From Truepera radiovictrix DSM 17093 (lineage in GTDB: Bacteria; Deinococcota; Deinococci; Deinococcales; Trueperaceae): DNA of 64,000 bases. Location: positions 2,051,001 to 2,115,000 of the forward strand of contig NC_014221.1 in assembly GCF_000092425.1 (NCBI RefSeq). The letters run 5' to 3'. Below, in pieces: positions 2,901 through 48,655 of this stretch (position 1 is the stretch's first letter; each line of letters starts with the position of its first letter). The notes beneath the pieces are model-generated. The model was not told the DNA's origin. It searched no databases and saw only the letters and a program-made list of their open reading frames with translations. A program made the translations under genes and the position numbers.

Positions 2901-3696
2901 GGCTAAGCCGCCCCCCCCCGCGCTGCCGCAGCGCCCGCTCGCACCGCGCCTGCTGTCGTGGGGCGTGTGGCTCGCGTTCGCCTTGCTCCTTTACGTCTCG
3001 GCCGTGCAGACGGGGTTTCGCCTAGACGACCTCTGGGGGAGCACGGTCGACTTCGTGCTCTTTTTCCGCAACTTCTGGCCGCCCGACTGGCGCGCGCTCT
3101 CCGACATCGGGCGCCCCCTCGTTCAGACGCTGCAGATGGCCTGGTTAGGGACGGTGTTCGGTGTCCTTTTGGGGCTCCCGTGGCTTTTCTGGTCGTCGCG
3201 CAACACCTCGCCCAGCGGGTTGCTCCTGTGGTTCTCGCGCACCCTGATGACGGTGCTGCGGAGCATCCCCGACCTCGTCTACGCCGCCGTTTTGGTGGGC
3301 GTGCTGGCCCTGGGGCCGCTGCCGGGGGTGGTGGCGCTAACCATCTTTACGCTCTCCATCCTCGCCAAGCTCGGTAGCGAGTACGTCGAGGCGGTCGACC
3401 CCGGCCCCTTGGAGGCGCTCCGCGCGAGCGGCGCGAGCGGCACGCACGTCATCGTCTACGGGGTGGTGCCCCAGGTCGCGGCGAGCTTGGTCTCCTACAT
3501 CCTCTACATCTTCGAGGTCAACGTGCGCGCCTCGACGGTGCTGGGGTTTGTCGGCGCGGGTGGCGTGGGTCAGCTCCTTAATACCTATACCGCCCTCTTT
3601 CAGTACCGGCGCCTGACGGTCTTGCTGCTGGTGACCTTTGTGGTGGTGGCGATCATCGACGCGGCCTCCGCGTGGGTGCGCTCGAGGCTCACCTGA
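2887..3696 (+). CDS. phnE: Phosphonate ABC transporter permease PhnE (first copy)
   Basis: Inner-membrane permease, 269 aa, GTG start inside the end of phnC. A proline-rich cytoplasmic N-terminus precedes about six membrane segments. The EAA-type coupling loop facing PhnC reads EYVEAVDPGPLEALRASGASGTHVIVYGVVPQV (around 160-195), the family hallmark. It pairs with the second permease encoded immediately downstream to form the heterodimeric channel. Stop and next start overlap (TGATG). Confidence 0.92.
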   Translation: MALPEAKPPPPALPQRPLAPRLLSWGVWLAFALLLYVSAVQTGFRLDDLWGSTVDFVLFFRNFWPPDWRALSDIGRPLVQTLQMAWLGTVFGVLLGLPWLFWSSRNTSPSGLLLWFSRTLMTVLRSIPDLVYAAVLVGVLALGPLPGVVALTIFTLSILAKLGSEYVEAVDPGPLEALRASGASGTHVIVYGVVPQVAASLVSYILYIFEVNVRASTVLGFVGAGGVGQLLNTYTALFQYRRLTVLLLVTFVVVAIIDAASAWVRSRLT

Positions 3697-4526
3697 TGGC
3701 CGCGCCAAGCCGCAAGCGCGCGCGTGATCTCAGCGCCATCCCCCCGACCCCGCCGCACGCGCGCCGCACAAAAGCCTTTCAGTACGCCCTCGGCTTTTTC
3801 CTCGTCGCCGTGACGCTGCTCTGCTTGCTGACGCTGCAAAACGTCTCGTGGGAGCGCGTCATCAGCGGCGCGCAACGCAACCTCGCGCCGCTCGCACGGG
3901 GCTTCGCCAACCCCTCGCAGGAGATCTTCGGCCGCGCCTTTGAGGCGATGATGGAGACGCTCTACATGGCGGTCATCGGCACCGTCATCGGCGGCGTCTT
4001 GTCGGTGCCGCTCGCGTTTATCTCCGCGGCTAACCTCATGGGAGGGGGTCGCGGCGCGCTGCCGGGGCGGGGCATCTTGGCCGGGGTGCGGGTCTTTCCA
4101 GAGCTCCTTTTCGCCATCATCTTCGTCGCCGCCATCGGCCCGGGCGCGGTCGCGGGAATCATGGCCCTGGGCGTCAACTCGGTAGGCTTTTTGGGCAAGA
4201 TGTTTAGCGACATCATCGAGTCGATCGACCCCGGCCCCGGCGAGGCGCTGCGGGCGACGGGGGCGGGGCCGGTGCACACCTTCGTCTACGCCGTGCTCCC
4301 GCAAGTCATGCCGGAGTTCGCCTCGAACGTCCTGTACCGCTTCGAGATCAACCTGCGCGCCGCCTCGGTGTTGGGGCTCGTGGGGGCGGGGGGTATCGGC
4401 GGCCTCCTCAGCCAGCGCATCCAGTTTCGGCGCTGGGAGGAGATCTCGATGATCCTCCTCGTGATCATCGCGTTCGTGGTGGTCGTCGACATCGTGAGCT
4501 CTTATGTGCGGCGGAGGTTGGTGTAG
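3696..4526 (+). CDS. phnE: Phosphonate ABC transporter permease PhnE (second copy)
   Basis: Second inner-membrane permease, 276 aa. The start ATG at 3696 overlaps the phnE1 stop (TGATG). It has an Arg/Lys-rich N-terminus, about six membrane spans, and the coupling loop FSDIIESIDPGPGEALRATGAGPVHTFVYAVLPQV, closely parallel to the first copy. Two tandem phnE genes behind phnC are common where the importer is a heterodimer. No phosphonate-degrading enzymes (C-P lyase, phosphonatase) or phosphite dehydrogenase follow, so the pathway after uptake is not shown here and phosphate itself remains a possible substrate. Confidence 0.92.
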   Translation: MAAPSRKRARDLSAIPPTPPHARRTKAFQYALGFFLVAVTLLCLLTLQNVSWERVISGAQRNLAPLARGFANPSQEIFGRAFEAMMETLYMAVIGTVIGGVLSVPLAFISAANLMGGGRGALPGRGILAGVRVFPELLFAIIFVAAIGPGAVAGIMALGVNSVGFLGKMFSDIIESIDPGPGEALRATGAGPVHTFVYAVLPQVMPEFASNVLYRFEINLRAASVLGLVGAGGIGGLLSQRIQFRRWEEISMILLVIIAFVVVVDIVSSYVRRRLV

Positions 4527-11935: not shown

Positions 11936-11978
11936 CGCGCCGGGGCGGCTCATAACGCCGCTCTGGGGGGTGAGCCGG

Positions 11979-11984
11979 TATAAT
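11979..11984 (+). promoter_or_regulatory. Consensus -10 box of alaS
   Basis: TATAAT at 11979-11984 is a perfect -10 hexamer. It overlaps the ATG at 11983, so that ATG cannot be the start of translation; the transcript must begin near 11991 and the GTG at 12007 is used. No good -35 is seen. Confidence 0.65.
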
Positions 11985-12006
11985 GGGCCGTTACGTAGGA
12001 GGCCAC

Positions 12007-14760
12007 GTGCAGAGCCACACCCAGTCACCGACCAATGCGCCGAGCGCCAGCGACCGCAGCCAAGCGGGCACCAGCCCAGACGCGCTACGGCGCAAGTTCC
12101 TCGAGTTCTTCCGCAGCAAAGGGCACCTCATCTACCCGTCGGCGCCCCTTAAGAGCGACGACCCGGGTTTGCTGTTCAACGTCGCCGGGATGCAGCAGTT
12201 CAAACCCTACTTCCAGGGCGCGACGCCCAAGTTTCCGGGTGTCGAGGGGGTCTGGCCGCGCGTCGCGACGAGCCAGAAGTGCATGCGCGCCGGCGGCAAG
12301 GACTCGGACATCGAGAACGTCGGGCGCACGCGGCGGCACCACACGTTTTTCGAGATGCTCGGCAACTTCTCCTTCGGCGACTACTTCAAGCGCGAGGCGA
12401 TCGGGTGGGCGTGGGAGTTTCTCACCGCACCCGAGTGGCTCGGCCTCGACCCCGAGAGGCTTTACGCCACGGTCTACCTGGACGACGACGAAGCCTACAA
12501 CATCTGGAAAGACGAGGTCGGGTTGCCCGAGGCGCGCCTGTCGCGCTTCGGTGAGGGCGAGAACTTCTGGCCCGCCAACGCCATTAAAGACGAGCGTTCG
12601 GGCCCCTGCGGGCCCTGCTCGGAGATCTTTTACGACCGCGGCCCCGCGTACGGCTCGCCGGACGAGACCGGCCCCAACACCGGCTCCGGCGACCGCTTTG
12701 TCGAGATCTGGAACCTCGTCTTCACCCAGTTCAACCTCGAAAACGGCGTGCTGACGCCCTTGCCGCAGCAGAACATCGACACGGGCGCCGGTTTAGAGCG
12801 CTTCGCGGCGGTCATCGCGGACGTCAAAGACGCCTACGCCACCGAGCTCTTTCAACCGATCATCCGGCGCCTAGAGCGGCTCTCCGGCGTCCCCTACCGT
12901 GACCTCGAGAGCGTTCACCACCGCATCATCGCCGACCACGTGCGCTCGGTGAGCATGTGCATCGCTGACGGTATCCTGCCCGCCAATGACGGCGCGGGGT
13001 ACGTCATCAAGATGCTCCTGCGCCGCGCGTCGCGCCAGGCGTACCTGCTCGGACTGCGCGAACCGGTTTTGCACCAGCTCGTGAGCGGCGTCGTCGAGGC
13101 CATGGGTGAGGCCTACCCCGAGGTCAAAGACGCGCAGGCGCGCATCGAGGGGATCGTGCGCGCCGAAGAGGAGAGCTTTTTGCGCACCTTAGAGAGCGGG
13201 ATCGCCCGCGTCTCCGGGCTTTTGGACGAGCTAGGCGGCGACACCCTGCCCGGCGACGTGGCCTTCGACCTCTGGCAGACCTACGGCTTCCCCTTGGACC
13301 TCACCGAGGAGATGGCCCAGGAGCGTGGCGTGCGGGTCGACCGCGAGGGGTACGCGCACGCGCGCGAAGCGGCGCGCAGCCTGTCCCGAGCGGCGCGCGG
13401 TGAGGGCGCGCTGTTCGGGGGCACCGACGTCTTCGGGCAGCTTGCCGAGGCGCACGGTGAGACGGCGTTCGTGGGTTACAGCGCCCGCGACGCCGAAGCG
13501 GCGGTGCGCGCGCTCGTGCAGGGGGGCGAGGCCGTCTCCGAGGCGGGCGAAGGGACGCATGTCCAGGTCGTCTTGGACACCACCCCCTTCTACGCCGAGG
13601 GGGGCGGACAGGTCGGCGACGCGGGCGTGCTCGAGTGGCGTGGCGGCGACCATGAGGGCAAAGCCTTGGTCACCACCACGACCAAGACCAAAGGCGGCGT
13701 GGTCGTCCACCACGCGCGCGTGCTGCGCGGCACGCTCAAAACCGGCCAACGCGTGCGCGCCGCGGTGGACCCGAGCCGCACAGAGACCGAAAAGCACCAC
13801 ACCGCCACGCACCTCCTGCACGCGGCGCTGCGGAGCGTCTTGGGGACGCACGTGGCGCAGGCGGGCTCGCTGGTGGCGCCCGAGCGGCTGCGCTTTGACT
13901 TCTCGCACCCGCAACCGCTCTCCGAAAGCGAGCTGCGGCGCCTCGAGGCCCTCGTCAACCGCTGGATCCAGGCTGACTTCACCGTCTCGTGGCGGGTCGT
14001 ACCGTTAGAGGAGGCGCGCGCCGCGGGCGCCATGATGCTCTTCGGCGAGAAGTACGGCGCGAACGTGCGGATGGTCTCGGTAACGCCCGAGCGTGACCCT
14101 AAGAGCAGCGTCTCCACCGAGCTCTGCGGCGGCACCCACGTCGCGCGCACGGGGACGCTCGGGGTGTTTGTGATCACGGGTGAGGAGGCGGTCTCGGCGG
14201 GGGTGCGGCGCGTCGAAGCCCTGGTTGGCGAGGCGGCGCTAAGCTACCTCGCCGACCTGCGCGCGACGCTTGCGGCGGCCGCTAAAAGCCTCGGGGTCAC
14301 ACCCGGCGAGCTGGGGCCCCGGTTGGAGAGGCTGCAGAGCGACCTTAAAGCGGCGCAGCGCACGGCGGCCGAGCTCCGCGACCGCCTCGCTGCGGCGCAG
14401 ACCGCGGGCGAATCGGGGCTCGAGGTAAGCGAGGCGGGCGGTTTCAGCTACGCCGTTGCGCAGTTGGGCGGCCTCGACGCAAGCGCCCTGCGCGGGGCGG
14501 CCGACCGGCTCCTGGCGCGCTCGGGCGCCGACCTCGTGGTCGTCGGCAGCGGCCCGCTGCTCGTCGTCAAGGCGAGCGACGCGGCGCAGGCGCGCGGCGC
14601 GCACGCGGGTCGGCTCGTCGGCGAGATCGCGCGGCGGGCGGGCGGCGGCGGCGGCGGGCGGCCCAACCTGGCCCAAGCGGGCGTCAAAGACCCCGCGCAG
14701 CTCGGCCGAGCGCTCGCCGCTTTGCCTGACATCCTCGAGCATCTGGCGGGGGGCGCTTAG
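12007..14760 (+). CDS. alaS: Alanyl-tRNA synthetase
   Basis: Charges tRNA-Ala, 917 aa. The start is set at GTG 12007, which follows AGGAGG, because the in-frame ATG at 11983 lies within the -10 box. Domain order: class II catalytic core from about residue 20 (LRRKFLEFFRSKGH, TSQKCMRAGGKDSDIENVGRTRRHHTFFEMLGNFSFGDY), tRNA-recognition domain, editing domain with the zinc motifs HTATHLLHA and CGGTHVARTG, and the C-terminal C-Ala/DHHA1 domain with a Gly-rich RRAGGGGGGRPNLAQAG. All key residues are present. The stop is followed at once by the HAD phosphatase gene. A tRNA-Ala gene lies at 59626. Confidence 0.97.
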   Translation: MQSHTQSPTNAPSASDRSQAGTSPDALRRKFLEFFRSKGHLIYPSAPLKSDDPGLLFNVAGMQQFKPYFQGATPKFPGVEGVWPRVATSQKCMRAGGKDSDIENVGRTRRHHTFFEMLGNFSFGDYFKREAIGWAWEFLTAPEWLGLDPERLYATVYLDDDEAYNIWKDEVGLPEARLSRFGEGENFWPANAIKDERSGPCGPCSEIFYDRGPAYGSPDETGPNTGSGDRFVEIWNLVFTQFNLENGVLTPLPQQNIDTGAGLERFAAVIADVKDAYATELFQPIIRRLERLSGVPYRDLESVHHRIIADHVRSVSMCIADGILPANDGAGYVIKMLLRRASRQAYLLGLREPVLHQLVSGVVEAMGEAYPEVKDAQARIEGIVRAEEESFLRTLESGIARVSGLLDELGGDTLPGDVAFDLWQTYGFPLDLTEEMAQERGVRVDREGYAHAREAARSLSRAARGEGALFGGTDVFGQLAEAHGETAFVGYSARDAEAAVRALVQGGEAVSEAGEGTHVQVVLDTTPFYAEGGGQVGDAGVLEWRGGDHEGKALVTTTTKTKGGVVVHHARVLRGTLKTGQRVRAAVDPSRTETEKHHTATHLLHAALRSVLGTHVAQAGSLVAPERLRFDFSHPQPLSESELRRLEALVNRWIQADFTVSWRVVPLEEARAAGAMMLFGEKYGANVRMVSVTPERDPKSSVSTELCGGTHVARTGTLGVFVITGEEAVSAGVRRVEALVGEAALSYLADLRATLAAAAKSLGVTPGELGPRLERLQSDLKAAQRTAAELRDRLAAAQTAGESGLEVSEAGGFSYAVAQLGGLDASALRGAADRLLARSGADLVVVGSGPLLVVKASDAAQARGAHAGRLVGEIARRAGGGGGGRPNLAQAGVKDPAQLGRALAALPDILEHLAGGA

Positions 14761-41331: not shown

Positions 41332-41647
41332 GCCTGCACGCTGGTCTCCCCTCAGGCGCAGCGCTTATTTCACCGAGACCTTTTTGCCCAACATCGACGG
41401 CAACGTCACCCGACTCACGCGCACCTTGGAGCAGTTGCGGGCGCATGCTCGGATGACGTTGCCGTCGAGCATAACGCCTTATCTGGCTCGTCGGCAAAAC
41501 GCGCAACCATCTCGCTCCATAGGCTTTGTTCACTCCAACGGCCGAAGCATGTGCAGACGCTGTTCCAGTTTCCTTAGCGCCAGCTCGCCACAGCCATTGG
41601 ACACCTAAAGGAGTCGTCCATTGAGATGCCAAAGGAGGTAGCGGCGA
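41283..41647. other. Patchwork region between sqdB and the BsuPI-like lipoprotein gene
   Basis: 365 bp: the tail of heptamer array B, the sqdX 5' fragment (41356-41444) and about 200 bp of lower-GC DNA with no recognised gene, which leads into the lipoprotein ribosome site AAAGGAGG. Confidence 0.6.
41356..41444 (+). pseudogene. Fragment duplicating the 5' end of sqdX
   Basis: About 89 bp match 42264-42352, the first codons of sqdX, with 8 mismatches (about 91%), four of them silent. The frame is kept (AYFTETFLPNIDGN against AYFTETFLPKIDGI in the intact copy) but the GTG start has become AGG and the similarity stops abruptly after LEQLRA. It marks the left edge of the lipoprotein insert. Confidence 0.85.
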
Positions 41648-42163
41648 GTGAACAAGTATTCCTCGAAAAGTCTAGCCTTTTCGATCCTCCTAGAGTCGGG
41701 TTTGGCGGCGTGCAGTAACGGAAGCCCCGATGTTGATACAGTTACCTATGCACACTCAACAGATACGCATCTTTGTCTCGACGTAGCGGTAGCTGCGCCT
41801 AGCATCATGGATCTTGGGACTGAAACAACAACTCGCGTAGAGGTCGGCAATCGGTGCGACGAAGCGACCACCTACGAAAGTTCCGGTCCGCCTTACTCCT
41901 TGGCACTCGTTCGTGATGATAACGAGGTAGTCTGGTACACACCATCGGAGCCTGTTCCGTCTATCCTTTTTGAGTACACCGTAGAGGCGAATGAAACAAC
42001 GCCTTACGAGGTGCCTGTGCTGCTCTCAGCCGACAGTGTGCCCCCCGGTAACTACAGCATGATCGCCAACCTTTTCGTTCATCAGATGGAACCGGGCGCA
42101 ACGCAGTACGAAAAACCTCTAAGGCTCGAGTCCGAACCCCAGACCGTCACTGTAGCGCCCTAA
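41648..42163 (+). CDS. Lipoprotein with a BsuPI-like domain, lower GC than its surroundings
   Basis: Secreted lipoprotein of 171 aa. Residues 1-22 form a lipoprotein signal ending LLESGLAAC, with Cys22 as lipid anchor. The rest looks like a beta-sandwich of the BsuPI (intracellular proteinase inhibitor-like) type: SLALVRDDNEVVWYTP, FEYTVEANETTPYEVPVLL, VPPGNYSMIANLFVH. The assignment is by eye. Base composition and codon use (AAT, AGT, CTA, TTT) are clearly less GC-rich than in adjoining genes, and it sits between the sqdX fragment and intact sqdX, so it was probably acquired. GTG start after AAAGGAGG. Confidence 0.75.
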   Translation: MNKYSSKSLAFSILLESGLAACSNGSPDVDTVTYAHSTDTHLCLDVAVAAPSIMDLGTETTTRVEVGNRCDEATTYESSGPPYSLALVRDDNEVVWYTPSEPVPSILFEYTVEANETTPYEVPVLLSADSVPPGNYSMIANLFVHQMEPGATQYEKPLRLESEPQTVTVAP

Positions 42164-42261: not shown

Positions 42262-43407
42262 GTGCGCATCGCTTATTTCACCGAGACCTTCTTGCCCAAA
42301 ATCGACGGCATCGTCACCCGGCTCACGCGCACGTTAGAGCAGCTGCGGGCGCTCGGGCACGAGGCGCTGGTCTTCGCGCCGCACAAACCCCCCGAGACCT
42401 ACGCCGGGTTTCGGGTCGTGCGGGTGCCGGGGGTGCCCTTTCGCCCCTGGTACCCCGAGCTGATGCTAGGACTCCCGCGCCCGCGTCTGGGCCGCGAACT
42501 CGACGCTTTCGCCCCCGACATCGTGCACGTCGTCAACCCGGTCATCTTGGGTCTTTGGGGCACAGCCATCGCCAAACAGCGCAACCTGCCCCTGCTAGCG
42601 TCGTTTCACACCGACTTACCGCAGTACGTCACGCACCTCAAGCTGGGGTTTTTAAAACCGCTCTCGCACACCTGGATCCGCGACGTCCACAACCAAGCGC
42701 ACGTCAACCTCTGCACGAGCCAACCGATGGTCAACTCGGCCAGGGGCTTGGGGATCAAACGGGTGCGGCTCTGGCCCAAAGCGGTCGACACCGAGCGCTA
42801 CCAGCCGACGAACCGGAGCGCGGCGATGCGCGAACGCCTCTCCGGCGGGCACCCCGACGCGCCCTTGATGATCTACGTGGGGCGGCTGTCGCACGAAAAG
42901 CGCCTCGACTGGCTCTACGCCCCCATCACCCAGCTCCCCGGGGTGCGGTTGGCGATGGTCGGCTCCGGCCCCGCCGAGAGCTTTTTGCGCGAGCGCTTCA
43001 AGGACACGCCGACGGTCTTTACGGGGTACATGAGCGGCGACGAGCTCGCGCAGGCGTACGCCAGCGCCGACGTGTTCGCTTTCCCCTCGGACACCGAGAC
43101 CCTGGGGTTCGTCGCGATGGAGGCGATGGCCTCGGGGGTGCCGGTCGTCGGCGCGCGGGCCGGCGGGATCCCCGACGTCATCCGCGAGGGTGAAACGGGG
43201 CTGATGTTCTCCCCCGGCGACCTGGGCGACCTCACCGAAAAGCTCCGGACGCTCCTCTTTAACCCCGAGCTGCGGCGCGCCATGGGCGAGCGGGCGCGGC
43301 AGGACATGGAGCGCTGGAGTTGGCGCGCCGCCACCGAGGCGCTGCTGACGTTTTACGAGCGCGCCGCGACCATCCACCGCCGCTACGACCCGCCGAGCAA
43401 GTACTAG
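42262..43407 (+). CDS. sqdX: SqdX-like glycosyltransferase (probable sulfoquinovosyltransferase)
   Basis: GT4 glycosyltransferase, 381 aa, thought to move sulfoquinovose from its UDP form to diacylglycerol. Similarity to plant SQD2 and cyanobacterial SqdX is visible along the length: PHKPPETYAGFRVVRVPGVPFRPWYPE, RVRLWPKAVDTERYQP, PLMIYVGRLSHEKRLDWL, TVFTGYMSGDELAQAYASADVFAFPSDTETLGFVAMEAMASGVPVVGARAGGIPDVI, including the E-x7-E nucleotide-sugar motif. Other GT4 lipid transferases look alike, so the assignment leans on sqdB. GTG start 6 nt after TACGCT (42250-42255), leaderless. Its 5' end is duplicated at 41356. Confidence 0.8.
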   Translation: MRIAYFTETFLPKIDGIVTRLTRTLEQLRALGHEALVFAPHKPPETYAGFRVVRVPGVPFRPWYPELMLGLPRPRLGRELDAFAPDIVHVVNPVILGLWGTAIAKQRNLPLLASFHTDLPQYVTHLKLGFLKPLSHTWIRDVHNQAHVNLCTSQPMVNSARGLGIKRVRLWPKAVDTERYQPTNRSAAMRERLSGGHPDAPLMIYVGRLSHEKRLDWLYAPITQLPGVRLAMVGSGPAESFLRERFKDTPTVFTGYMSGDELAQAYASADVFAFPSDTETLGFVAMEAMASGVPVVGARAGGIPDVIREGETGLMFSPGDLGDLTEKLRTLLFNPELRRAMGERARQDMERWSWRAATEALLTFYERAATIHRRYDPPSKY

Positions 43408-43541: not shown

Positions 43542-44441
43542 ATGACGGTGCGCGCTCTTGAAAGTCGTGACTTCCCGGACCTGTTGGCGCTCCTTAAACT
43601 TCAAGACGAGGACGCCGCGCACCGCAGCATGACGCCGGAGAGCCGCAGCGTCGAGGAGCTCGCCCTCGAGCTCGGCGAGCTCTCCCCCTACAGCGAACTC
43701 GTCCCGCTGGTGCTCGAGAGCGACGCCGGGCTCACCGCCTACGTCGCGCTCTGCCGCTACGACGGCGAGGCCTTTTTGGAGGGGCCTCTTATGCACCCCG
43801 AGGCTAGCGTCGAGGAGGTCAAACCGCTCGTGCTCGAGGCGACCGCCGAGGCCAAGCGGCGCGGGTTCGCCTTTGTCGAAGCGTTTGTCGATGAGGAAAA
43901 CCGGCGGGCGCAGCAGGTGCTCTCGGAAGCCGCCTTTGAACCCTTTCGCACGACCTACATCTACACCTTTACCCGCGGCACCCCCCTCGCCCCCCTCGCC
44001 CCCAGTCCCTTCCGCTTCGAGCGCACCAAAACGGTCGACCTCTCCTCGTACCGCGACCTCTACCGCGAGACGAGCGACAACTGGGCGACGCGGCTCGCGT
44101 GGCGCGACGAGGACCTCTTGGAGCGCTTTGCCGACCCCAACGTGACGCTCACGCTCGCCTACAGGGGCGACAAGCTCGTCGGGCACCTCGAGCTCGAGCG
44201 CTTCCCCGACGAAGGCTACGCCGAAGTGGCCTACTTCGGCGTCTTGCCGGAGGCGCGCGGCCAGAAGCTCGGCCGCGAACTCCTGCTGCGCGGCCTTCAC
44301 GAAGCCTTCGCCGACGAGGCCATCGAACAGGTCCTCGCCCGCGCCCAGGACGACGAGCGCGCCGCGTCGTTTGCCTTAGAGGGGGTCGGTTTTCGGCTCT
44401 CGCACGGGGTGGTGGCCTTTACCTTGGAGCTCGAGCCTTAA
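43542..44441 (+). CDS. GNAT-family acetyltransferase with two tandem domains
   Basis: 299-aa protein with two GNAT folds: residues 1-145 (MTVRALESRDFPDLLALLKLQDEDAA...) and 155-299. The C-terminal copy has the acetyl-CoA loop FGVLPEARGQKLGRELLLRGL (V-x-P-x-x-R-G-x-x-L/I-G); the N-terminal copy is degenerate. The acceptor is unknown. TAGCAT at 43530-43535 lies 6 nt before the ATG, leaderless. The last 27 bp before its stop are repeated at 45559-45585, which shows that the gene once ended next to the permease at 45567. Confidence 0.88.
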   Translation: MTVRALESRDFPDLLALLKLQDEDAAHRSMTPESRSVEELALELGELSPYSELVPLVLESDAGLTAYVALCRYDGEAFLEGPLMHPEASVEEVKPLVLEATAEAKRRGFAFVEAFVDEENRRAQQVLSEAAFEPFRTTYIYTFTRGTPLAPLAPSPFRFERTKTVDLSSYRDLYRETSDNWATRLAWRDEDLLERFADPNVTLTLAYRGDKLVGHLELERFPDEGYAEVAYFGVLPEARGQKLGRELLLRGLHEAFADEAIEQVLARAQDDERAASFALEGVGFRLSHGVVAFTLELEP

Positions 44442-44823
44442 GCCTCACGTCACCCCAGCGAACCCGTTAAACAGCGAGAGTAGAGCTTAAGAAGGTTTCA
44501 TTAAGCTTCCACTTAGCAATCACTGTAAACTGCTAACATCCTCGAAGCAACAAAGGGGGTGGCAGCCTTTGCCCAGATAGCCCTTCTGCAAGTTGGCGGT
44601 TCATCTAGGAGCTGGTCGGCTTTCAACCTTCTCGTAGGTTGTCAGGGGGCATCTTGAACGCTCCTAATTCTCGTGCAACGAAACTTTTTTCTGCTCAGGT
44701 GAACTTCTCTTCGGGTGCGTTGAGCCCTGGTACGTATCGCTGGCACGTCATTGCAACCAGTGGCAGCGGTAGCCTTGACATGTTCCCAAAAGGTTGACCT
44801 TGGCTCTGCGGAGGCATATGGAC
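44442..44823. other. Lower-GC acquired DNA before the fasciclin gene
   Basis: 382 bp that begin just after the GNAT stop. The first 165 bp are AT-richer than the window average, with no gene seen; the rest holds an open frame without a proper start (44609-44797). Confidence 0.55.
44609..44797 (+). pseudogene. Remnant of a gene 3' end
   Basis: Open frame of 62 codons with no good start, ending FSAQVNFSSGALSPGTYRW and then HVIATSGSGSLDMFPKG. The SPGTYRWHVIATSGSG segment looks like the last strands of a beta-sandwich domain. It probably is the truncated end of a secreted protein carried in with the insert. Confidence 0.35.
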
Positions 44824-45345
44824 ATGAGATACGGTTTCGTCCTTTTAATCCTGTTGCTGTTCACTGCTTGCGGCTCAACGACAAGCCCCATCTCAGACCC
44901 TGGTCTACTCGGTCAGGTTTTGGTTGGTGTTGAGCCAACTGAACCCGCGTTCGGAACGTTCTCTAGTGCGCTTGCTGACGAAGAGCTGGCAGATGTTCGT
45001 GAACTGCTCATGCAAGAAGGGCCATATACAGTGTTCGTTCCCGGCAACGCGGCCTTCGACGCGTACTTCGAGGCGCGCGGCATCACCAAAGAGGCGTTTT
45101 TGGCGAGTGACGAGATGCCCGAGATCATCCGTGCTCACATCGCACTCGGCAAGTACAACGCCGATACACTGCTTGGTAACGACACTTTGACCGCCGAGAA
45201 CCTCAACGGTGACACATTGACGATCAGCCGAGAAGGCGACGACTTTTACGTCAACGGCGTCCCAGTTGACGGCCCCGTTGTCGAGGGAACAGGGAACGTC
45301 AAGAACGGTGCACTCCACTTCCTCTTAGGCGTCATTGAACCCTAG
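44824..45345 (+). CDS. Fasciclin-domain lipoprotein
   Basis: Surface lipoprotein of 173 aa. MRYGFVLLILLLFTAC is a lipoprotein signal with Cys16 as anchor. One fasciclin (FAS1) domain follows: FGTFSSALADEELADVRELLMQEGPYTVFVPGNAAFDAYF (the conserved TVFVPxNxAF), then VLL-type H-box region IIRAHIALGKYNADTLL and a final VVEGTGNVKNGALHFLLGVIEP. Such domains mediate adhesion. ATG 44824 follows GGAGG at good distance. Its codon use is less GC-rich than its neighbours', and flanking duplications mark it as acquired. Confidence 0.85.
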   Translation: MRYGFVLLILLLFTACGSTTSPISDPGLLGQVLVGVEPTEPAFGTFSSALADEELADVRELLMQEGPYTVFVPGNAAFDAYFEARGITKEAFLASDEMPEIIRAHIALGKYNADTLLGNDTLTAENLNGDTLTISREGDDFYVNGVPVDGPVVEGTGNVKNGALHFLLGVIEP

Positions 45346-45371
45346 CTGAAGCGTCTCAACCAACCTCAGAC

Positions 45372-45399
45372 GGGCCGCTCTTAGGGGCGGCCCTTTTTC
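45372..45399 (+). terminator. Terminator after the fasciclin gene
   Basis: GGGCCGC (45372-45378) pairs with GCGGCCC (45387-45393), followed by TTTTT. Confidence 0.85.
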
Positions 45400-45416
45400 G
45401 TGCCGCATCCGCGCCG

Positions 45417-45563
45417 CCATAAACCCCCGGAGAGGATGCGTTGTTGCGCTCCGTTTTTCCACCCCAGCGCCCCTGCCGCGTCCCGCAGCGCGCTCCGGCA
45501 ACAGAGCCCAGCAGCGAGCACGTATGAAAGAGACCAAGTACATCTTCGTGACGGGTGGGGTGG
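45417..45563 (+). repeat. Duplicate of the pyrG promoter, leader and first codons
   Basis: 147 bp are 98% identical (3 mismatches) to 46863-47009. The copy holds the pyrG leader and its first 13 codons, up to the GGGTGGGGTGG, then switches to the GNAT 3' end. It is not a functional pyrG. Confidence 0.95.
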
Positions 45564-45589
45564 CCTTTACCTTGGAGCTCGAGCCCTAG
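45559..45589 (+). repeat. Copy of the GNAT gene 3' end
   Basis: 27 bp (45559-45585) are identical to 44411-44437; the copy then ends CCCTAG instead of CCTTAA. Read in the GNAT frame this is the likely original end of that gene, still overlapping the stop of the convergent permease. The switch from the pyrG copy lies within the shared GGGGTGG. Confidence 0.9.
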
Positions 45590-46790
45590 CGGGTCGCTCC
45601 GCGCGGGTGTCGCCGAGGGTGTCGCGGAGGTAGAGCTCGCGCACGAGCACCAACAAAAGCGCCAGAAGCGGCGCGGCGACGAGAGCGCCTAAAAGCCCCA
45701 AGAGGCTGGCGAGCGCGAACACGCCGATGATCCCTAGCACCGGCGGCAGGTCGACCGCCCGCCGCTGGATCAGCGGGTGGATGACGTTGCCCTCGAGCTG
45801 CTGAATGACGAGGTAGAAGAGCGCCACGTAGAGCGCAAGCAGCGGGCTCTGGGCGAACGCCAGCAGCACGGCCGGCACCGCCGCTAGCACCGGGCCGATG
45901 TTGGGGATGAACTCGAAAAGGGCGGCGATAACGCCCAGCACAAAGGCGAGCGGCACGCCGAGCACCCAGAGCCCCACGCCCGTCACGGTGCCGATTAAAA
46001 GCATCGAGATAAGTTGCCCCACGAGCCACGCGCGCAGGGTGTAGCCGAGCTTGCTGGTGACCTCGCGCGCGCGGCGGCGCTGCGGCGGCGGCCACAGGCT
46101 GACCAGGCCCTCTTGGTAGTAGCGCGGATGGATGGCCAAAAAGAGCCCCACGAAAAAGATGAAGACGCCGTAGAAGACGAGGGTGGTGAGCGAGGTGATG
46201 AGCTGCGTCGTCTGCGCCAGCACCTGCGACAGCATCTGCCCCAACCGATCAGCCCCCTCGTCGGGTGCGGGGAGGAGCGCGCGGAGGCTGTCGTACCACG
46301 GCGTTCCGCCGAGCTCCGCCTCGAGGTTCTGCAAAAACCGGGGCAGCCCCTCGAAGAGCGCTACCGCTTGCGCGGCCAGCGTAGGCCCCAAGAGCGAGAG
46401 GGCAAGGGCGAAAACGCCGGCGAAAAGCAGCAGCGTGAGCGCGAGCGACCAACCGCGCGGCAGCGACAGGTAGCGGCGAAAAAGGCTCGAGGCGGCGTCT
46501 AGAAACACGCCGAACAGGAGCCCGATAAAGGCGAGCAGGAAGATGTCGGCGAGGCGCCACAGCAAAAGCGCCCCCAGCACGGTGAGGCCGACGATACCGG
46601 TCGCGATCAGCACGCGTTTGGCGTAGGTGCCTAGCGTCATCTCTTTGGCGATCACCCTCACCGGTGAGGCCCACTTCGGTCCACGCACGTCGTCTCCTCT
46701 CTGGCCACGCGTCGCCACGAAAAGCGCCCCAGAAGCGTCGTTAGCGGTCTTTGTGGCACCCGCCGGAAGCGCTGGCGCAACCGCGGACAC
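45567..46790 (-). CDS. AI-2E family (PerM/TqsA-like) membrane transporter
   Basis: Permease of the AI-2E/PerM family, 407 aa, about eight membrane helices. Family motifs: FEFIPNIGPVLAAVPAVLLAF and QQLEGNVIHPLIQRRAVDLPPVLGIIGVFALASLLGLLGALVAAPL. GTG 46790 has GGAGG at good distance, although the first 50 residues are unlike the family and an ATG at 46640 is an alternative. The last codons lie inside the copied GNAT 3' end, so permease and GNAT genes were convergent and overlapping before the fasciclin insert. Substrates in the family range from signal molecules to Na+/H+; unknown here. Confidence 0.88.
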   Translation of the reverse strand: MSAVAPALPAGATKTANDASGALFVATRGQRGDDVRGPKWASPVRVIAKEMTLGTYAKRVLIATGIVGLTVLGALLLWRLADIFLLAFIGLLFGVFLDAASSLFRRYLSLPRGWSLALTLLLFAGVFALALSLLGPTLAAQAVALFEGLPRFLQNLEAELGGTPWYDSLRALLPAPDEGADRLGQMLSQVLAQTTQLITSLTTLVFYGVFIFFVGLFLAIHPRYYQEGLVSLWPPPQRRRAREVTSKLGYTLRAWLVGQLISMLLIGTVTGVGLWVLGVPLAFVLGVIAALFEFIPNIGPVLAAVPAVLLAFAQSPLLALYVALFYLVIQQLEGNVIHPLIQRRAVDLPPVLGIIGVFALASLLGLLGALVAAPLLALLLVLVRELYLRDTLGDTRAERPARARAPR

Positions 46791-46862
46791 AGCGGCCCCT
46801 CCACCATAACAGGCCCAACCACCCGCCAGCCTAGAGCGCGGGACCGCTCCCCATCCGTGCTA

Positions 46863-46969
46863 CCATAAACCCCCGGAGAGGATGCGTTGTTGCGCTCCGT
46901 TTTTCCACCAGAGCGCCCCTGCCGCGTCCCGCAGCGCGCTCCGGCGACAGAGCCCAGCAGCGAGCACGT
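46863..46969 (+). promoter_or_regulatory. pyrG leader region (source of the duplicated segment)
   Basis: 107-nt leader before pyrG, preceded by a TACCAT box (46861-46866). It contains an ATG at 46881 that opens a frame of about 48 codons running into pyrG in another frame (starting MRCCAPFF). It may be an upstream ORF or chance. The leader is conserved almost perfectly in the copy at 45417. Confidence 0.4.
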
Positions 46970-48655
46970 ATGAAAGAGACCAAGTACATCTTCGTGACGG
47001 GTGGGGTGGTGTCGTCCTTGGGTAAGGGCATCGTCACCTCGAGCCTCGGGGCGCTCTTGCGCGCGCGCGGCTACCGCGTCACGGCCGTCAAGATCGACCC
47101 CTACATCAACGTGGACGCGGGCACCATGCGCCCGTACGAACACGGCGAGGTCTTCGTCACCGCCGACGGCGCCGAGACCGACCTCGACCTAGGCACCTAC
47201 GAACGCTTTTTGGACGTGCCGATGAGCCGCGCGAACAACATCACCACCGGGCAGGTCTATTTGCGGGTCATCGAGCGCGAGCGCGCGGGTGAGTACCTGT
47301 CGCAGACCGTGCAGGTGATCCCGCACGTAACCGACGAGATCAAGGGGCGCATCCGCGAGGCGGGCCGCGCCGTGGGCGCCGAGGTGGTGCTCGTCGAGGT
47401 CGGCGGGACGGTCGGCGACATCGAGTCGCTCCCCTTTTTGGAGGCCATCCGGCAGCTGCGCTTCGAGGTGGGGGGCGGCAACGCGCTCTACCTGCACGTC
47501 ACGCTCCTGCCCTACCTGGGCACCAGCGAGGAGTTCAAGACCAAACCCACCCAGCACTCGGTCGCGACCCTGCGCAGCGTCGGCATCCAACCCGACGGCA
47601 TCGTGCTGCGCTCGCCGAGCCCGGTGCCCGAGGAGGTGAGCCGCAAGATCGCGCTCTTTACGAACGTCGAGGCGCGCGACGTCTTTAACTCGTTTGACAC
47701 CGACATCATCTACGAGGTGCCGGAGATCCTCGAGCAGCAGGGGCTGGGCCGCTTCGTCGAGCGCCGCTTGGAGCTCGAGAAAGTCACTCCCGAGCTGCAC
47801 GCCTGGCACAAGGCGGTGCGCGTTTTGCGCAACCCCAAAAGGCAGGTCACCATCGGCGTGGTCGGCAAGTACGTGGCCATGCCCGACGCCTACTTGAGCC
47901 TCACCGAGGCGCTTAAACACGCCGGCATCGCCAACGAGGCGCGGCTCGAGCTACGCTGGGTGAGCGCCGAAGCGCTCGTGGAGGGCGACCTGAGCCCCTT
48001 GGCCGAGCTCGACGGTATCCTCGTACCGGGCGGTTTCGGCGTGCGCGGCATCGAGGGCAAGGTGCGCGCGGCACGCTACGCCCGGGAGCGGGGGGTGCCC
48101 TACCTGGGGATCTGCCTGGGCATGCAGATCGCTGTCATCGAGTTTGCCCGCAACGTCGCGGGGCTGCAGGCGGCGAACTCGACCGAGTTCGACCCCTACA
48201 CGCCGCACCCGGTCATCGACCTCATGCCCGAACAGCGGGGGCTCGCCGACACGGGCGGCACCATGCGCCTGGGCGACTGGCCCATGCAGGTGGCTCCCGA
48301 CACGCGCCTCCATGAACTCTACAAAGACCGCCTGGACCACCGCGGCGTGGTGTTCGAGCGCCACCGCCACCGCTTCGAGGTCAACCCGGCGTACGTGACA
48401 CCCCTGCAGGAGGCGGGGCTCACGGTCTCCGGCGTGACCCCGGGGATGGCGGGGCGCGGCGCGGGGCTCGTCGAGGCCGTCGAGCTCCCCGAGCACCCCT
48501 TTTTCGTCGCTCTGCAGTCGCACCCCGAGTTCGGCACGCGGCCGATGCGCCCCTCGCCGCCCTTTCGCGGCTTCGTGGGGGCGGCGGTGCGCTACGGGGA
48601 GGCGCGCGCGGCCCGTGAGGCCGGCGCCGAGGCGGACGTCCGTGCGCGGGCCTAG
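46970..48655 (+). CDS. pyrG: CTP synthase
   Basis: Makes CTP from UTP, ATP and glutamine, 561 aa. The synthase domain has KYIFVTGGVVSSLGKGIVTSSLGALLRARGYRVTAVKIDPYINVDAGTM; the glutamine amidotransferase domain has the nucleophile Cys in YLGICLGMQIAVIEFARNV and the His/Glu pair in LQSHPEFGTRP. Length is normal (about 540-560). The ATG at 46970 lacks a strong ribosome site. Promoter and 5' end are duplicated at 45417. udk follows 15 nt after the stop, giving a pyrimidine-nucleotide unit. Confidence 0.97.
   Translation: MKETKYIFVTGGVVSSLGKGIVTSSLGALLRARGYRVTAVKIDPYINVDAGTMRPYEHGEVFVTADGAETDLDLGTYERFLDVPMSRANNITTGQVYLRVIERERAGEYLSQTVQVIPHVTDEIKGRIREAGRAVGAEVVLVEVGGTVGDIESLPFLEAIRQLRFEVGGGNALYLHVTLLPYLGTSEEFKTKPTQHSVATLRSVGIQPDGIVLRSPSPVPEEVSRKIALFTNVEARDVFNSFDTDIIYEVPEILEQQGLGRFVERRLELEKVTPELHAWHKAVRVLRNPKRQVTIGVVGKYVAMPDAYLSLTEALKHAGIANEARLELRWVSAEALVEGDLSPLAELDGILVPGGFGVRGIEGKVRAARYARERGVPYLGICLGMQIAVIEFARNVAGLQAANSTEFDPYTPHPVIDLMPEQRGLADTGGTMRLGDWPMQVAPDTRLHELYKDRLDHRGVVFERHRHRFEVNPAYVTPLQEAGLTVSGVTPGMAGRGAGLVEAVELPEHPFFVALQSHPEFGTRPMRPSPPFRGFVGAAVRYGEARAAREAGAEADVRARA

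Follow-up and report, generated by a model that had tools for sequence, protein, structure and literature searches.

Upstream of pyrG, the chromosome of Truepera radiovictrix carries a real and well-preserved recombination scar that is larger than first described, and the locus probably arose when chromosomal DNA of a close relative was imported with the help of homology. It is best read as a clear natural example of homology-facilitated illegitimate recombination, not as a new mechanism. New here are a copied promoter that appears dead, a mirror scar at the glycosyltransferase gene, and a third scar near 1.91 Mb. The analysed window comprises 64,000 nucleotides (bases 2051001–2115000 of the T. 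radiovictrix chromosome), and the feature coordinates below are window positions.

Duplicated Gene Ends and Their Joint

The intact pyrG gene, encoding CTP synthase, was located by Pfam search at 46970–48655 (+ strand). A sequence-only reading of the window had reported a 147-bp copy of the pyrG leader and 5′ end at 45417–45563, 98% identical to the original, with a switch into a duplicate of the GNAT 3′ end ahead of the permease gene. Both the copy and the switch are real: 144 of the 147 positions are identical to 46863–47009, with mismatches at 45464, 45465 and 45500, and BLAST widened the match to 161 bp (45403–45563 against 46849–47009; 95.7%), so that the partial copy (+ strand) spans the pyrG leader and the first 13 codons. 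No further DNA copies of the pyrG piece or of the GNAT-end piece were found genome-wide.

The GNAT acetyltransferase gene (43542–44441, + strand; Pfam Acetyltransf_1, 1.9e-14) is intact, ends in TAA and has orthologues in the family genomes G001, G013 and G010. Its last 27 bp (44415–44441) are repeated at 45563–45589 (+ strand) as a relic of another GNAT 3′ end with the stop codon TAG. The two differences, CCT TAA versus CCC TAG, are both silent and, differing in this way only, the two ends look like two alleles. The AI-2E family transporter (permease) gene (45567–46790, − strand; Pfam AI-2E_transport, 1.9e-55) has its C-terminus antisense to the GNAT relic. Since the permease stop codon (TAA, 45567–45569 on the − strand) lies antisense within the GNAT-end copy, the original convergent overlap of GNAT and permease can still be read, as the earlier reading had held.

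The illegitimate joint was placed by sequence comparison of parents and joint at 45559–45563. The 7-bp microhomology (GGGGTGG) suggested previously had to be shortened, the exact register of the joint being 5 bp (GGTGG). In a common reading frame, the pyrG and GNAT parents are alike over 9 bp, GGGGTGGTG (Gly-Val-Val), and the joint is one GTG short; thus, the fusion is in frame, reading MKETKYIFVTGG followed by VAFTLELEP and the stop codon. In random pyrG/GNAT joins, microhomology of at least 5 bp occurs in about 1% of position pairs and 0.2% of distinct products. The 5 bp of GGTGG fall within the 3–10 bp at which the joints of homology-facilitated illegitimate recombination form in transformable bacteria (PMC6382021).

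An 18-bp stretch at 44556–44573, GGGGTGGCAGCCTTTGCC, is like the GNAT 3′ end save for three transitions, and could be a further relic or chance; a resemblance of this quality, with three mismatches, is expected 0.06 times per window. It was not taken as an additional GNAT relic because no wider match was seen, and an equally good unrelated match is found at 3325.

The Fasciclin Insert

Between the GNAT gene and the pyrG copy stands a segment with a G–C content of 0.52–0.55, against 0.68 for the window. It consists of a spacer (44442–44823; 0.52, from base composition), a gene for a fasciclin-domain lipoprotein as cargo (44824–45345, + strand; Pfam Fasciclin, 6.1e-16; GC 0.554, GC3 0.64), and an intrinsic terminator 3′ of this gene (45372–45398, + strand) revealed by the terminator search. 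No fasciclin relatives above about 39% identity were found in the relatives or in the class searched, a scan of genome contigs returned no relative, and among plasmids there was a single match of 31%. G001 has no orthologue of the fasciclin gene and none of the permease gene, its best matches reaching 33%. The low G–C content of the fasciclin region and the lack of an orthologue in relatives are what a gain of foreign DNA predicts. The locus does not look like the insertion of a mobile element: none of its genes was assigned to a recombinase by Pfam, and the flanking repeats differ in length and origin, unlike terminal repeats with a short target duplication.

The pyrG Promoter and Leader

A scan for consensus promoters found nothing, and the −10 element was assigned by its conservation in relatives, 27 of 29 of which have TGnTA in the pyrG leader. 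By sequence comparison, the native extended −10 element and leader occupy 46858–46969 (+ strand). In the copy (45412–45420, + strand), the native TGCTACCAT is replaced by CGCCGCCAT, with three of the four TG.TA positions altered, and the copied pyrG promoter looks dead. If the homology reaches 45406, there are six differences in 158 bp, three of them on the four TG.TA bases (P about 1.2e-4); alternatively, the homology may stop at 45417, the 11 bp further left matching at 8/11, as do 0.7% of window positions. The predicted folding energy is −33.6 kcal/mol for the leader of the copy versus −39.3 kcal/mol for the native one, and neither is far off its shuffles (z, −0.75 and −1.86, respectively).

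In the relatives read, pyrG starts a few bases past a conserved leader, TGnTAnnnT...GGAGAAGG. Among these genomes, about 83 further nt in this leader are found in T. radiovictrix only, and they are also within the copy. Because the copy holds this insertion, the donor of an imported copy must, on the comparison with these genomes, be very close to T. radiovictrix, of the same or a very near species; otherwise the copy would be endogenous. As a separate observation, at 46882–46973 these nucleotides, specific to T. radiovictrix among the relatives read, separate the ribosome-binding site of pyrG from its start. The segment folds into a long hairpin and has room for a possible leader peptide of 28 codons, starting at TTG, the TGA of which overlaps the pyrG ATG (ATGA).

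A Second Scar at the Glycosyltransferase Gene

About 3 kb upstream, the pyrG/GNAT scar has a mirror image, in which a glycosyltransferase relic is followed by a low-GC lipoprotein gene. The relic (41356–41444, + strand) is a copy of the 5′ end of the glycosyltransferase gene (native, 42264–42352; 91%) that has lost the start codon and promoter. The intact gene (42262–43407, + strand; Pfam Glycos_transf_1, 6e-33) would be part of the homologous core. Between the two lies an orphan lipoprotein gene (41648–42163, + strand; GC 0.535) that has no relatives in the 38 other family genomes. Codon comparison revealed five silent changes, and the non-silent ones, including the loss of the start codon, sit in the relic.

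Since the glycosyltransferase relic and the GNAT relic are the two outer tips of a glycosyltransferase–GNAT pair, the segment 41445–45563 could be one import. It is conceivable, though on balance doubtful, that a single import of about 4.1 kb (lipoprotein–glycosyltransferase–GNAT–fasciclin–pyrG start) replaced the resident glycosyltransferase–GNAT pair, with an illegitimate joint at either end and an outer tip of that pair remaining as a relic at each. The two scars differ in divergence (9/92 versus 3/147; Fisher P 0.012), and two events are therefore possible; the comparison of 9/92 with 6/161 gives P 0.058. If a single swap is the true course of events, double-ended swaps may recur in Truepera as a route to small surface-protein genes.

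Gene Order in Relatives

This GNAT gene is present in four of the 39 family genomes. G001 and G013 keep the order epimerase–glycosyltransferase–GNAT but have no lipoprotein gene there; the gap between epimerase and glycosyltransferase contains a reading frame called NUDIX-like on its sequence only in the former and measures 72 bp in the latter. The contig of G001, the sister species, stops 41 bp past GNAT and no G001 contig overlapping beyond it was found; its order can be read only to that point. In G010, the order is glycosyltransferase–GNAT–[glucose/sorbosone dehydrogenase, − strand]–pyrG–udk; with another gene standing between GNAT and pyrG, this space is thus variable among genomes. The predicted donor order, GNAT–fasciclin–pyrG, for which the sequence-only reading had advised a search, was found in none of the genomes examined.

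Origin of the Locus

The gene order would be explained by homologous pairing at one end and an illegitimate closure at microhomology at the other, a course that the evidence supports, mostly by inference. Before the import, the resident order would have been epimerase–glycosyltransferase–GNAT(TAG)–permease–pyrG. The incoming strand would have carried GNAT(TAA)–fasciclin–pyrG, possibly with lipoprotein–glycosyltransferase on its left, and would have paired by homology within the glycosyltransferase–GNAT part, the GNAT gene presumably serving as homology anchor. The far end of this strand, lying 13 codons within pyrG, would have had no homologous partner there and would have been joined to the resident GNAT 3′ end via GGTGG, which would leave the 27-bp GNAT relic before the permease gene and, 3′ of the fasciclin gene, the partial copy of pyrG, whose promoter and leader would later have decayed. 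This course of events, as first proposed, keeps its support from the copies and the joint, the explained gene order, the low G–C content of the insert, the epimerase–glycosyltransferase–GNAT order shared by G001 and G013, the variable gene between GNAT and pyrG seen in G010, and the two similar scars. Recombination within GNAT, part of the same proposal, would fit the silent-only differences, which look like those of two alleles; the microhomology needed correction. The donor, the direction, uptake by transformation and the number of events belong to what we infer. The reverse import, with permease–pyrG entering a GNAT–fasciclin–pyrG resident, would give the same product, and thus the direction cannot be told. 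Against import stands the missing donor order, in a family of which only four of the 39 genomes have this GNAT gene. Moreover, a working donor pyrG needs a promoter and the −10 element of the copy is broken; it would have to have changed afterwards, unless the copy is bounded on its left by another junction. A ComEC gene is present (the gene alone, not competence) and Ku was not found, which fits import and proves neither competence nor a repair route.

The start of the clean pyrG copy inside the −10 element, without a working promoter, would also suit a templated filler, in which a break in the GNAT 3′ end caught a fasciclin fragment, and 147–161 nt of pyrG, 1.4 kb off, were copied by repair synthesis before it returned to GNAT at GGTGG. 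The microhomology at the joint and the origin of every duplicated piece within 2.6 kb agree with such an event. We consider it unlikely, as it requires that an in-frame stop arose by chance in the left GNAT end at precisely that codon, whereas two silent changes are all that separates the ends. In addition, a weak resemblance to the sequence 5′ of pyrG continues towards the fasciclin terminator, suggesting a decayed leftward extension of the copy. Less likely still is a tandem duplication from the GNAT end to the pyrG start by microhomology, one copy later losing the permease gene and the other gaining or losing fasciclin: it would be expected to join the 5′ end of pyrG to the 3′ end of GNAT at GGTGG, but it requires two further clean replacements and leaves the restriction of low G–C content to the fasciclin side unexplained. 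Short near-identical repeats can lead to misjoining, yet an assembly error is hardly credible as the source of the duplicate or joint, since several bases distinguish the two copies and the chromosome of strain RQ-24T (3,260,398 bp) was finished at 153x from 454, 454 paired-end and Illumina reads (PMC3072082).

Comparison with Known Systems

Homology-facilitated illegitimate recombination, a RecA-dependent process that follows DNA uptake, has been described in Acinetobacter baylyi, Streptococcus pneumoniae and Pseudomonas stutzeri (PMC6382021). The Truepera locus shares with it one joint at 3–10 bp of microhomology, a gain of foreign DNA and, putatively, one homologous anchor, and differs in being seen as an evolutionary scar. 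The nearest natural parallel is the meningococcal capsule island, where an intact galE1 and a truncated remnant, galE2, have been ascribed to illegitimate recombination (PMC5349592); there too, acquired DNA adjoins one intact version of a gene and a truncated remnant of the resident version. That island is 24 kb in size with inverted flanking regions, and population data exist for it, whereas in Truepera one or two small genes make up the cargo, with relics of 27–161 bp.

Transformation experiments have made joints of this kind familiar; a natural one can seldom be resolved base by base. In Truepera, relics on both sides make the resident and incoming orders readable, and scars of this kind could trace gene acquisition in a radiation-resistant, poorly sampled lineage.

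A Third Scar and Other Repeats

The scar pattern is recurrent. Near 1.91 Mb, an ABC-F gene has its 3′-terminal ~115 bp repeated at 11971–12084 of segment L138 (bases 1900001–1920000), and a toxin–antitoxin pair, a PhdYeFM antitoxin gene and a PIN gene, stands between the two 3′ end copies. Three scars of such type were counted in 1.18 Mb of T. radiovictrix sampled, and G017 has one comparable pair in 0.36 Mb; a genome-wide rule of unusually frequent scars is not supported by these counts. Within L138:11971–13027 (T. radiovictrix 1911971–1913027), the ABC-F copies end in different last codons. A dispersed intergenic repeat of ~115 bp occurs in 30–37 copies in the 484 kb of T. radiovictrix sampled, with L128:12112–12451 and L130:10779–11348 among them. 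The window also contains a direct repeat of ~178 bp at 3386–3560 and 4216–4390, with an identity of 73%.
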